Positions 10,409 through 35,130 of a DNA stretch of 64,000 nt are shown here, piece after piece; position 1 is the first letter of the stretch; each line of letters begins with the position of its first letter. Where the stretch lies: the NCBI RefSeq assembly GCF_009908165.1, contig NZ_JAAAUC010000010.1:62001-126000 (forward strand), in the 5' to 3' direction. The translations under genes were made by a program, and so were the position numbers. Below the pieces are notes generated by a model that saw only the letters and a list, made by a program, of their open reading frames with translations, ran no database searches and was not told the DNA's origin. Origin of the DNA: Frigidibacter albus. Lineage in GTDB: Bacteria; Pseudomonadota; Alphaproteobacteria; Rhodobacterales; Rhodobacteraceae.

Positions 10409-11839
10409 TCACTGTCCTTTTCCGTTGAAGATCGTGTCGATGCCGACACGGTTCCGGCTTTCTGTATCTTCGATCCAGATCGTCAGCGGCGTGCGCTCTG
10501 CCAGCGCCGGGGCCGATCCTGCGGGCGCCACCACATAGAGCCGTGTTCCGCCCAGTTCGTCTGCAGCGACCGACACCACCGTGCCCGCATTGCCCTCGAC
10601 CGTGGTGATCAGCGCCGGATCGCCCTCGACCGTGATCAGGAAGTCCCGCACGCCATGCTGCTTGTTGCGCAGGCGCACCTCGTAGGTATTGCGGATCGAA
10701 CCGTCGGACAGCGTCACGTAGACCGGGTTCCGCTCTGGCGTCACGTTCACGTCGAAGGGGGATCGCATGAACAGTGCCACCACCAGCCCGATGCCGATGC
10801 CTGCCCAGAGCACGGTATAGACAAGGGTGCGCACACGGAAGATATGTTTCCAGATATGCTTGGGATGGGCGCCGGCCCGTTCGGCCGCCTCGTCCTTCAG
10901 CGCCAGATAGTCGATCAGCCCGCGCGGCTTGCCGATCTTGTCCATCACCTCGTCGCAGGCGTCGATGCACAGCGCGCAGGTGATGCATTCCAGCTGCTGG
11001 CCGTTGCGGATGTCGATGCCCATCGGGCAGACGTTGACGCAGGCCATGCAATCGATGCAATCGCCCACCGGCTCATCGGTGCCCACCGCCTTCTTCAGCT
11101 TGCCGCGCGGCTCTCCGCGCCATTCGCGGTAGGCGACGGTGATGGTGTCTTCGTCCATCATCGCGGCCTGGATCCGCGGCCAGGGGCAGGCATAGATGCA
11201 GATCTGTTCCCGTGCAAAGCCGCCGAAGGCAAAGGTGGTCAGCGTCAGCACGAGGATGGTGATATAGGCCGCCGGATGCGCCTGCCCGATCAGCAGGTTG
11301 CCCAGAAGCGTCGGCGCGTCGGTGAAGTAGAACACCCAGGCGCCGCCGGTAGCGAGGCCGATCAGCAGCCACAGCGTCCATTTGGTCAGCCGGAGCCGGG
11401 CCTTGTGGGCGCTCCATTTCTGGTTGAACAGGCGGACCCGGGCGTTGCGGTCGCCTTCGATCCATCGCTCCACCAGGATGTAAAGGTCGGTCCAGACCGT
11501 CTGCGGGCAGGCATAGCCGCACCACACCCGGCCAAGCGCCGAGGTGAACAGGAACAGGCCAAGCCCCGCCATGATCAGAAGGCCGGCGACGAAATAGAAT
11601 TCGTGCGGCCAGATCTCGATCATGAAGAAGAAGAACCGCCGGTTCGCCATGTCGATCAGCACCGCCTGGTCGGGCATCCCTGGCCCGCGATCCCAGCGGA
11701 TCCACGGGGTCACGTAGTAAATACCCAGCATCACCGCGAGCAGCACCCATTTCAGGTTACGGAATCGGCCCTTCACGCGGCGCGGAAAGATCGGTTCGCG
11801 CGCGGCATAAAGGCTGGCGGGTTGGTCGGAAGAGCTCAC
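10409..11839 (-). CDS. ccoG: Membrane-bound iron-sulfur protein CcoG (RdxA/FixG)
   Basis: A 476-residue polytopic membrane protein with two 4Fe-4S clusters: CIDCMACVNVCP and CITCALCIDAC. An Ig-like FixG C-terminal domain follows. CcoG reduces Cu(II) for cbb3 oxidase assembly. I chose a GTG start at 11839, preceded by GGAG. An ATG at 11914 in frame is excluded because it lies inside an FNR box and upstream of the predicted transcription start. First gene of ccoGHIS; regulation by FnrL is inferred from the box at 11901. Confidence 0.93.
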   Translation of the reverse strand: MSSSDQPASLYAAREPIFPRRVKGRFRNLKWVLLAVMLGIYYVTPWIRWDRGPGMPDQAVLIDMANRRFFFFMIEIWPHEFYFVAGLLIMAGLGLFLFTSALGRVWCGYACPQTVWTDLYILVERWIEGDRNARVRLFNQKWSAHKARLRLTKWTLWLLIGLATGGAWVFYFTDAPTLLGNLLIGQAHPAAYITILVLTLTTFAFGGFAREQICIYACPWPRIQAAMMDEDTITVAYREWRGEPRGKLKKAVGTDEPVGDCIDCMACVNVCPMGIDIRNGQQLECITCALCIDACDEVMDKIGKPRGLIDYLALKDEAAERAGAHPKHIWKHIFRVRTLVYTVLWAGIGIGLVVALFMRSPFDVNVTPERNPVYVTLSDGSIRNTYEVRLRNKQHGVRDFLITVEGDPALITTVEGNAGTVVSVAADELGGTRLYVVAPAGSAPALAERTPLTIWIEDTESRNRVGIDTIFNGKGQ

Positions 11840-11900
11840 GGCAGGTCTCCGTTGGCGGACTGGTTGGTGTTGCTTGTAGGATAGCTGTTCGCGCCGGGCA

Positions 11901-11914
11901 TTGACCTGCGTCAA
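11901..11914 (-). promoter_or_regulatory. FNR-type box for ccoG
   Basis: TTGACCTGCGTCAA matches the FNR palindrome TTGAT-N4-ATCAA with one change in each half. Its centre lies 41.5 bases upstream of a predicted start at about 11866, and TACAAG at 11878-11873 (minus strand) sits at the -10 position. This is class II activator geometry for ccoGHIS. It overlaps a run of six T on the minus strand. Confidence 0.65.
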
Positions 11915-11965
11915 AAAAGGCAGACGGGTGATACATGAAAGCCGGTCGATCCCGCCGGGAAAGGA

Positions 11966-12018
11966 ATGGCACCGGCACCCCCAGGAAACGCGCGAACAGG
12001 ACGGGGAGCCGGTGCCAT
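11966..12018. other. Large inverted repeat in the ccoP-ccoG gap
   Basis: Arms 11966-11981 and 12003-12018 pair in 15 of 16 positions around a 21-base loop, starting with ATGGCACCGGC and its complement. It is too long and lacks a T run directly next to the stem, so it is not a standard terminator. It lies between two FNR-like boxes; on the minus strand a T6 run occurs about 50 bases further at 11918-11913. Role unknown. Confidence 0.6.
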
Positions 12019-12076
12019 GACACGGACGTTTCCGCCACGGTCATGAGTTGCGTAATCCTCGCCGGACACCTCCGCC

Positions 12077-12090
12077 TTGACGTGGATCAA
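12077..12090. promoter_or_regulatory. Second FNR-type box in the ccoP-ccoG gap
   Basis: TTGACGTGGATCAA differs from the FNR consensus at one position. It is 176 bases upstream of the ccoG-proximal box, too far for direct class II activation of ccoG. A transcript from it on the minus strand would begin near 12042 and run through the large inverted repeat. The -10 region is poor. Confidence 0.5.
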
Positions 12091-12237: not shown

Positions 12238-13107
12238 TTATTCGCCGCCACCCAGCCCGTGGACATAAGAGGCCACGGCCCGGATCTCGGCTTCCGAAAG
12301 CCGGGTGCTCCAGTTCGGCATCACGCCGAAGCGGGAGTTGTTCACCGTCTCGGTCAGGCTGGCGACATCGCCGCCATAGAGCCAGATCGCGTCGGTCAGG
12401 TTCGGTGCGCCCTGGGCACGGTCGCCGGTGCCGTCTTCCATGTGGCAGGACGCGCAGTTGTCGATGAACACCGTCTCACCCTCGGCCGACAGCGCCGCAT
12501 CATGCTCTTGCCCCGAGATGGCCATCACATACTGCACCACCGCGTCGATCTGCGCCGGTTCCAGCAACTCGTCGGCGCCGAACCGCGGCATCTCGGAGTA
12601 GCGGGCATCGTCATCCTCGATGTTGCGGATGCCGTGGGTGATGGTCAGGTGGATGTCTTCCACCGACCCGCCCCAGAGCCAGTCGTTGTCCAGCAGGTTC
12701 GGATACCCCTCCGCCCCCGCCGCGCCCGAGCCGTGGCACTGCGCACACCAGGTGCGGAAGATCGCGCCCCCGGCGTTCTGGGTGAAGTTCGCCAGTTCGG
12801 GATCGGCACTGATCGCGTTCAGGTCGGCCGCGACCAGCTTGGCCTCGATCGGCGCATTGGCATCCTCGAAGCGCTGGATCTCGGCCGCGACATCGGCGCG
12901 GGTCGAGTGGCCCAGCAGGCCCGGCGTCGCCTTGGTCAGCCCCGGCCAGGCCGGATAGGCGATGGTGTAGAGGATCGCCCAGACGATGCAGGCATAGAAG
13001 GTCCAGAGCCACCAGCGCGGAAGCGGGTTGTTCAGTTCTTCGATGCCATCCCAGCTATGGCCGGTGGTGCCGACCTCTTCCTTGGCTTTCACAGGTCTCT
13101 TGGTCAT
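12238..13107 (-). CDS. ccoP: cbb3-type cytochrome c oxidase, dihaem subunit CcoP
   Basis: A 289-residue membrane-anchored dihaem cytochrome c. The N-terminal CcoP domain contains [13 protein letters not shown] and one transmembrane helix (about residues 33-53). Two haem c sites follow: CAQCH (121-125) and CASCH (218-222), each with a downstream methionine ligand ([11 protein letters not shown]). It passes electrons from soluble or anchored cytochrome c to CcoO and CcoN. The ATG at 13107 has an AAGGAGG site and overlaps the ccoQ stop codon (ATGA). Confidence 0.96.
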
Positions 13108-13343
13108 TTCCACGCCTCCTTGAACGTGGCACCGCTGGCCTTGTCGGTGCCGTCGCCACCGCAGTCGGCGCAGGTGCCGGCACAGGCGGGTCGGTCTTCA
13201 TTGCGGAACGGGATGTTGGCGGTGTCCTTGTAGACTTTCGAGCTGCCGGGCCGGAAGGCCCAGAACACGACACCCACGAAGAACAGCGTCAGCGCGAGAA
13301 GCGCCCAGCTGTCGGCGAACTCCCGAAGGATATGATAGTTCAT
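13104..13343 (-). CDS. ccoQ: cbb3 oxidase small subunit CcoQ with cysteine-containing tail
   Basis: A 79-residue protein. Residues 1-35 form the usual CcoQ membrane segment ([20 protein letters not shown], then WAFRPGS). CcoQ stabilises the oxidase complex. After the conserved [10 protein letters not shown] the protein has a tail, [13 protein letters not shown], with three cysteines in CxxxCxxC spacing, followed by a short basic end. This makes it longer than most CcoQ, by my recollection. It overlaps ccoP by four bases and starts nine bases after the ccoO stop codon. Confidence 0.9.
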
Positions 13344-15790: not shown

Positions 15791-15804
15791 TTGATCTGTG
15801 TCAA
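15791..15804. promoter_or_regulatory. FNR box, ccoN-proximal
   Basis: TTGATCTGTGTCAA, one mismatch to the FNR consensus. Centred 102 bases upstream of the ccoN start codon. Class II geometry would place the ccoN transcript start near 15756, leaving a leader of about 60 bases. Confidence 0.7.
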
Positions 15805-15822: not shown

Positions 15823-15836
15823 TTGATCCGCATCAA
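15823..15836. promoter_or_regulatory. FNR box, uspA-proximal (perfect palindrome)
   Basis: TTGATCCGCATCAA, an exact match to TTGAT-N4-ATCAA. Centred 74 bases upstream of the universal stress protein start; +41.5 gives a start near 15871 with TAAGAA at the -10 position (15859-15864). Confidence 0.75.
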
Positions 15837-16801: not shown

Positions 16802-17548
16802 CTAGATCAGGTAGCCGCCGTCATTGTCGTCGCCCGCTTCCGTCAGCAGCAGGTCGAAATCGGGGATCGTCACATGGCGCTTGCCCTGCAGCTCGATCAC
16901 CCCGTCCCGCTTCAGCGCCGAGATCTGGCGGCTGACGGTTTCCAGCGTCAGGCCCAGATAGTCTGCCATCGCCTCGCGGGTCAGCGGCAGGTCGAACACC
17001 ATCCGCCCCTGCGGCGAGCGGAGTTTCAGCGAGGCATCGCGCCGGGCGATGATCGCCACAAGGCTCGCGATCTTCTCGCGCGCGGTCTTGCGGCCCAGCA
17101 GCAGCATCCATTCGCGCGCCGCATCCAGCTCGTCCAGCGTCATTTCCAGCAGGCGCTGCGCGACATGCGGGGTGCGCACCATCATCTCCTCGAACGGGCG
17201 CTTGCGGAAGCAGCACATCAACAGGTCGGTGGTGGCAATCACGTTATAGGCCGCCGTCTCGCGCCCCGGGCGCCCCACGAAGTCCGACGGCAGCAGCAGC
17301 CCGACCATCTGGGTGCGCCCGTCTTCCATCGTCTGGGTCAGCGTGGCGATGCCCGACACGACCGAGGCGACGAAATCCATCTTGTCGCCGGCCCAGGTCA
17401 CCGTCTGCCCGGCCTCGAAACTGCGGTAATACTTGATCTCCTCCAGCAGCGCCAATTCGTCCGTCTCGCACCGCGCACAGACGGCGCGGTGACGGATCGG
17501 ACAGGCCCCGCATTGAAGGGAAATGTTGTGCGCGTCCTGTAGGGACAT
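16802..17548 (-). CDS. fnrL: Oxygen-sensing Crp/Fnr-family regulator FnrL
   Basis: A 248-residue Crp/Fnr regulator. Cysteines at 13, 16, 24 and 27 in an N-terminal CGACPIRHRAVCARC motif, plus C112/C113, fit an oxygen-labile 4Fe-4S cluster. A cyclic-nucleotide-like beta-roll, a dimer helix, and a helix-turn-helix with LTLETVSRQISALK follow; the E..SR pattern is that of FNR and fits the TTGAT boxes found here. The ATG at 17548 is preferred because the upstream extension would start inside an FNR box. Located beside its probable targets ccoN, usp and hemN. Confidence 0.93.
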   Translation of the reverse strand: MSLQDAHNISLQCGACPIRHRAVCARCETDELALLEEIKYYRSFEAGQTVTWAGDKMDFVASVVSGIATLTQTMEDGRTQMVGLLLPSDFVGRPGRETAAYNVIATTDLLMCCFRKRPFEEMMVRTPHVAQRLLEMTLDELDAAREWMLLLGRKTAREKIASLVAIIARRDASLKLRSPQGRMVFDLPLTREAMADYLGLTLETVSRQISALKRDGVIELQGKRHVTIPDFDLLLTEAGDDNDGGYLI

Positions 17549-17558
17549 TTGCCTGCTT

Positions 17559-17572
17559 TTGATTTGGGTCAA
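17559..17572. promoter_or_regulatory. FNR box between fnrL and hemN
   Basis: TTGATTTGGGTCAA, one mismatch to consensus. It ends 11 bases before the fnrL ATG, so it probably lies in the fnrL leader and could allow self-repression. Toward hemN it is centred about 42 bases upstream of the ATG at 17608, implying a near-leaderless hemN transcript. Confidence 0.7.
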
Positions 17573-35028: not shown

Positions 35029-35122
35029 GAGAGGTTGGCGCGGGCGAGCGCCTCGCCAACCCGGTCAGGTCCGGAAGGAAGCAGCCGTAACGAGCCCCGC
35101 TTGGGTCGTTGTCCAGCCTCTC
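35029..35122 (+). ncRNA. ffs: Signal recognition particle RNA, small bacterial type
   Basis: About 94 nt. It contains the universally conserved SRP domain IV: GGTCAGGTCCGGAAGGAAGC followed by AGCCGTAACGAG, with the GGAA tetraloop and the AGC asymmetric loop. The ends GAGAGGTTGG and CCAGCCTCTC pair to close the stem. The RNA binds Ffh and targets nascent membrane proteins. The exact ends are estimated from pairing. Its 3' end is part of a 16-bp repeat found again at 43,536. Confidence 0.95.
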
Positions 35123-35130
35123 ACCCCTCC
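35115..35130 (+). repeat. attL: direct repeat at the ffs 3' end
   Basis: AGCCTCTCACCCCTCC begins with the last eight bases of the SRP RNA and is repeated exactly at 43,536-43,551. A truncated tyrosine integrase starts within ten bases of it. This is the expected layout for a site-specific element integrated into the 3' end of an RNA gene. Confidence 0.75.

Follow-up and report, generated by a model that had tools for sequence, protein, structure and literature searches.

Our analysis suggests that the gap between ccoP and ccoG of Frigidibacter albus encodes a member of the motif HRC-8-4, which would be made as a separate, FnrL-driven small RNA of about 85 nt with a loop acting in trans; we assign this reading a probability of roughly 0.75. 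The analysed stretch of DNA (64,000 nucleotides, in the following the window) would carry the predicted RNA on the minus strand from 12042 (start ±2) to a deduced 3' end at 11957. That the RNA is probably autonomous in the window is new. The first-pass annotation had already proposed an FNR-controlled small RNA at this site. Comparative support for it came from the covariation of the stem, from a class II FNR promoter pattern and from the box that is found when the hairpin is uncoupled from ccoP, and the transcript itself remains a prediction.

The order of elements on the minus strand is ccoP (12238-13113, NCBIfam TIGR00782, 426 bits, stop at 12238), a GC-rich hairpin (12209-12192), an FNR box, the main hairpin, a T6 run, a second FNR box and ccoG (10409-11839, NCBIfam TIGR02745, 540 bits), which has a probable GTG start at 11839 with GGAG ahead. 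The GC-rich hairpin is probably the terminator of ccoNOQP and divides ccoP from the small-RNA promoter. The two FNR boxes are, as described earlier, 176 bp apart and both match TTGAN6TCAA exactly. One belongs to the predicted small-RNA promoter (minus strand, TTGATCCACGTCAA; TTGACGTGGATCAA at 12077-12090), the other one to ccoG (minus strand, TTGACGCAGGTCAA; TTGACCTGCGTCAA at 11901-11914). The 4.19-Mb genome contains 32 exact matches and nine matches to the reversed pattern; five of the 32 are found in the window. The three further boxes (15791-15804, 15823-15836 and 17559-17572) are located in the gap between ccoN and a stress-protein gene and in the divergence between fnrL and hemN. The gene of the presumed regulator, fnrL (16802-17572, minus strand, NCBIfam NF045989, 461.8 bits), is part of the same cluster. 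A bacterial small SRP RNA was detected at 35029-35125 of the window (56.6 bits).

The 15-of-16-bp hairpin between the boxes, with 12018-12003 pairing with 11981-11966, was recovered as annotated. Its predicted fold comprises 11 and 4 pairs flanking one U.U mismatch and a loop of 21 nt (-31.8 kcal/mol). Among inverted repeats with 16-bp arms, at least 15 Watson-Crick pairs and a loop of 3-60 it is the only one in the window; the Markov control gave 0.1 per window, so that the structure by itself is only mildly unusual and its significance comes from conservation. A blastn comparison of the gap with 148 relatives, for which the loop was not preselected, had most of its hits in the hairpin, especially in the loop. 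The 21-nt loop as a whole hardly varies, and its core CUGUUCGCGCGUUUCC (11984-11999, minus strand) is near-invariant. Covariation of the stem, which the first-pass annotation had named as a check, supports an RNA structure: all 13 model pairs changed on both sides (79 copies, single stem), and 94.6% of the cells paired versus 81.5% in shuffles and 40-50% with slid partners. The covariance model for the main hairpin (11966-12018, minus strand) scored 73.8 bits on the minus strand of the window and 25.3 bits on the plus strand. It detected the hairpin in 210 of 393 sampled Rhodobacterales genomes, mostly as one copy and at times as two to four. For the counts following this step copies were picked by the exact loop core, and the loop invariance in these counts is therefore partly given by construction.

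Several variants of the structure were observed. Three loci of one genus (L145, L146 and L151) carry two or three copies in tandem behind ccoP, at a spacing of about 90 nt; their stems differ yet are complementary, and their loop cores are identical. Degenerate copies with an altered loop follow ccoP in the Rhodobacter sphaeroides relatives L010 (2797-2868) and L012 (2796-2867), in which the hairpin RNA may be decaying or changing. The fold predicted for the window includes a small 5' hairpin, GACCGUGGCGGAAACGUCCGUGUC (12019-12042, minus strand), which is largely retained in the genus. GGAAACG at its tip (12027-12033) and CGUUUCC of the main loop (11984-11990) are complementary; across the family, the loop showed no excess of pairing with the 5' leader of the same RNA (mean 4.60 versus 4.52 in shuffled sequences).

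Judged by location, taxon and architecture, the window hairpin is a member of HRC-8-4. According to the sections of PMC8632094 used here, this motif has 160 representatives, exclusively from Rhodobacterales and situated between ccoNOQP and ccoGHIS, and is an orphan with a strong stem and a conserved tip for which a riboswitch or binding of HvrB was considered as a speculation. Features shared with the family of the window are the restriction to Rhodobacterales, the ccoNOQP/ccoG gap, an occasional position ahead of hvrB, a strong covarying stem and conserved loop nucleotides. A U-rich tail belongs to the motif in these sections as well; boxed copies in our set are T-rich (0.50 at the first position) and ccoP-adjoining copies weakly so. 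The same sections offer the riboswitch and HvrB speculation without FNR control, a promoter or a small-RNA reading. Rfam yielded no family at gathering score near the site, and the match to CrcZ was discarded as chance with only 13 bits.

The 185 copies occur in two genomic arrangements. One comprises 113 copies located 20-94 nt past the ccoP stop, which places them in the 3' UTR of ccoNOQP, itself FNR-driven; none of them has its own upstream FNR box. In Paracoccus denitrificans (L040), for example, the hairpin core lies 56 nt past this stop. Copies with their own promoter occur, for instance, in Shimia. Among the remaining copies 64 of 72 have an exact box 80-205 nt upstream (0/113 versus 64/72, Fisher 3e-41, with relatedness ignored). 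Because a copy too near to ccoP leaves no room for a box, the informative half is 64/72; by chance, an exact box is expected in about 0.2% of such stretches, given the genome density of TTGAN6TCAA. The eight boxless exceptions consist of five tandem copies (L145, L146, L151), one extra copy in L152, the copy in L009 (136 nt after ccoP) and the copy in L048, which has a box with one mismatch. Both forms are present in L021, L046 and L137: one copy belongs to the ccoP 3' UTR, and the other is served by a separate FNR box. Mapped on a ccoG tree, the arrangement switches at least 14 times, with just four independent pairs on well-supported branches; box and arrangement are concordant in all four, as they are in nearly all random pairings. 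These observations are evidence, at the level of genome comparison, that FNR governs HRC-8-4 RNA in either arrangement, which is a new aspect of the motif.

Alignment of the 64 boxed copies on their box revealed a -10 pattern T-A-n-A-n-T with A at -11 in 80% of them (1.11 bits, while the mirror position has 0.07 bits); 58% have an A at +1, and both features occur solely on the hairpin side. The pattern fits a class II FNR promoter with the box centred near -41.5 and supports its direction towards the hairpin. In the window, the probable -10 element TACGCA (12049-12054, minus strand) lies 22 nt past the box and matches the family pattern weakly; the spacing of the small-RNA FNR box is conserved in same-genus genomes. 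The FNR -41.5 rule, the conserved -10 and the A at +1 agree with the minus-strand start near 12042 that had been predicted initially. The initial length of 130 nt, ending at the T6 run (11918-11913), is probably wrong. The run is present in the sequence; it was rejected as a terminator because it shares two T's with the ccoG FNR box and is not preceded by a terminator-like hairpin. A length of about 85 nt fits better. Termination is probable in the pyrimidine-rich tail UCCUUUCCC (11957-11965, minus strand), which is T-rich in boxed relatives; in the window itself this U-tract and the -10 are both weak. A second terminator after the hairpin was present in none of the 64 boxed copies and in 24 of 121 unboxed copies (0 in shuffled sequences). 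Since boxed copies turn T-rich directly behind the hairpin and lack a second terminator, they probably end there, and the likely 3' end in the window is just after the main hairpin. The main texts on Ruegeria, Paracoccus, Dinoroseobacter and R. sphaeroides contained no expression evidence for an HRC-8-4 RNA.

In the mechanism that we propose, FnrL would bind at 12077-12090 at low oxygen and bring RNA polymerase to the minus-strand start near 12042, and transcription would terminate past the strong hairpin near 11957, which would yield about 85 nt of RNA. Other species would instead produce the hairpin as a portion of the FNR-driven ccoNOQP transcript, in its 3' UTR, and both forms or tandem copies are found in some. 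Neither cis role suits both arrangements, since action as a leader fails in one and action as a ccoP 3' UTR in the other; action in trans would fit both, and we infer that the single-stranded conserved loop is the working part. The loop would most likely pair, through 5'-UCCUGUUCGCG-3', with 5'-CGCGAACAGGA-3' at ribosome binding sites (RBS) of target mRNAs.

Possible targets were found at the level of the genus. GCGAACAGGA, the complement of UCCUGUUCGC, occurs as a perfect 10-nt match at the RBS of five genes of this genome, where an 864-kb background predicts about 0.5 (P about 2e-4, uncorrected for the use of two seeds). For gloA, 11 perfect nt including the CGCGAACAGGA seed are kept in four of five same-genus genomes while the flanks diverged. 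Further genus-level sites with diverged flanks belong to a 79-aa membrane protein (three) and a DMT-type transporter (two species), and the site of an aldehyde dehydrogenase recurs in two other genomes of the genus; target gene names were taken from reading translations. The gloA site is absent in G004 and other carriers, and the counts of GCGAACAGGA-ATG per genome gave no clear separation between carriers and non-carriers of the RNA. The seed AGGAAACGCG at start codons was dropped as not general, with petB and lon in three genera each and an SDR gene in two genomes. Its cause aside, a common CGCGAACAGGA(G) block at the RBS of unrelated genes was noticed within one genus, in L393, L396, L397 and L398 as well as in the same-genus loci L399-L410. 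Being confined to the genus and absent from more distant relatives, the RBS complements are suggestive and represent a lead rather than a result. An FNR-controlled RNA whose loop binds a protein, as a sponge or scaffold, instead of mRNAs would account for the extreme conservation of the loop and for predicted mRNA targets that are not widely common, and the self-complementary CGCGCG in the loop would also permit kissing dimers; the excess of perfect complements at the RBS within the genus speaks against it, and we regard it as unlikely.

Of 170 loci, 167 show a separate exact FNR box for ccoG, placed 3' of the hairpin and 66-124 nt ahead of the gene. For the window this places the predicted ccoG transcription start near 11866, and the ccoG leader thus excludes the hairpin. 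Elsewhere the next gene is often not ccoG, but hvrB, an AraC-type gene or, as in L014, L015, L041 and L204, an oppositely oriented gene. The comparison thereby separates the RNA, which would be FNR-controlled all the same, from ccoG, and the long ccoG leader offered as the second option of the first-pass annotation found no support. It also makes it improbable that the leader of ccoG or hvrB contains the hairpin as a terminator-embedded riboswitch or attenuator. This idea goes back to the speculation of the discoverers of HRC-8-4 and agrees with the strong stem, the conserved loop, some U-rich tails and the frequent vicinity of hvrB (PMC8632094, sections used here), but the downstream genes vary and the unboxed copies, which mostly adjoin ccoP, are often followed by another terminator. 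The terminator-like elements with which these sections of PMC8632094 compare HRC-8-4 also have a stem with a conserved tip; they are genetic switches ahead of the genes they control, whereas the window hairpin lies outside the ccoG leader.

A mere terminator of ccoNOQP or a 3' mRNA-stability element would suit the 113 copies close behind ccoP, but it leaves the near-invariant 16-nt loop unexplained. All 33 boxed copies that adjoin ccoP are preceded by a strong separate hairpin, which follows the ccoP stop and comes ahead of the FNR box, and the ccoNOQP transcript consequently probably stops before the box. Other copies with their own promoter are situated away from ccoP, between a GGDEF gene and hvrB in L107 and between a stress-protein gene and ccoI in L099 (names of neighbours by reading translations). 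We therefore give this explanation little chance. A conserved small protein encoded through the hairpin in frame L-F-A-R-F is scarcely credible and was rejected: a 95-codon frame crosses the hairpin in the window, but the loop bases are nearly unchanging at any codon position, stem lengths vary by single bases and, of the copies in that frame, fewer than half have an in-frame start.

FnrS of E. coli is a short RNA with an FNR-activated promoter which regulates genes at low oxygen. The window RNA is predicted to be similarly short and FNR-activated, and regulation at low oxygen would be expected; it differs in that Rfam searches revealed no relation in sequence, in its lineage and in the additional occurrence of HRC-8-4 in a 3' UTR. 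FnrS is listed as FNR-controlled in PMC8139620. PcrZ of Rhodobacter sphaeroides is a low-oxygen sRNA of 136 nt with PrrA as likely direct activator (PMC6238624, PMC8139620), and the RNA predicted here would share with it the low-oxygen sRNA character in a related bacterium. Identity with PcrZ was dismissed by genomic position, as its 5' end at 2,565,820 beside RSP_0820 (PMC6238624) is another locus than ccoP-rdxB at about 2,436,600 (PMC4263372).

In the sections of PMC8632094 used here, HRC-8-4 has until now been an orphan motif with just a speculative riboswitch reading. With its tie to FNR across all genomic arrangements, the motif acquires a regulator, a condition in which it can be sought and a probable start site. 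With somewhat less than even confidence, HRC-8-4 may represent an order-wide FNR riboregulator and functional counterpart of FnrS, which pairs through its invariant loop with RBS and repeatedly switched between 3' UTR and own promoter while FNR control was kept. With it, a large order with marine, soil and phototrophic members, several of which serve as laboratory models, would have a low-oxygen small RNA.
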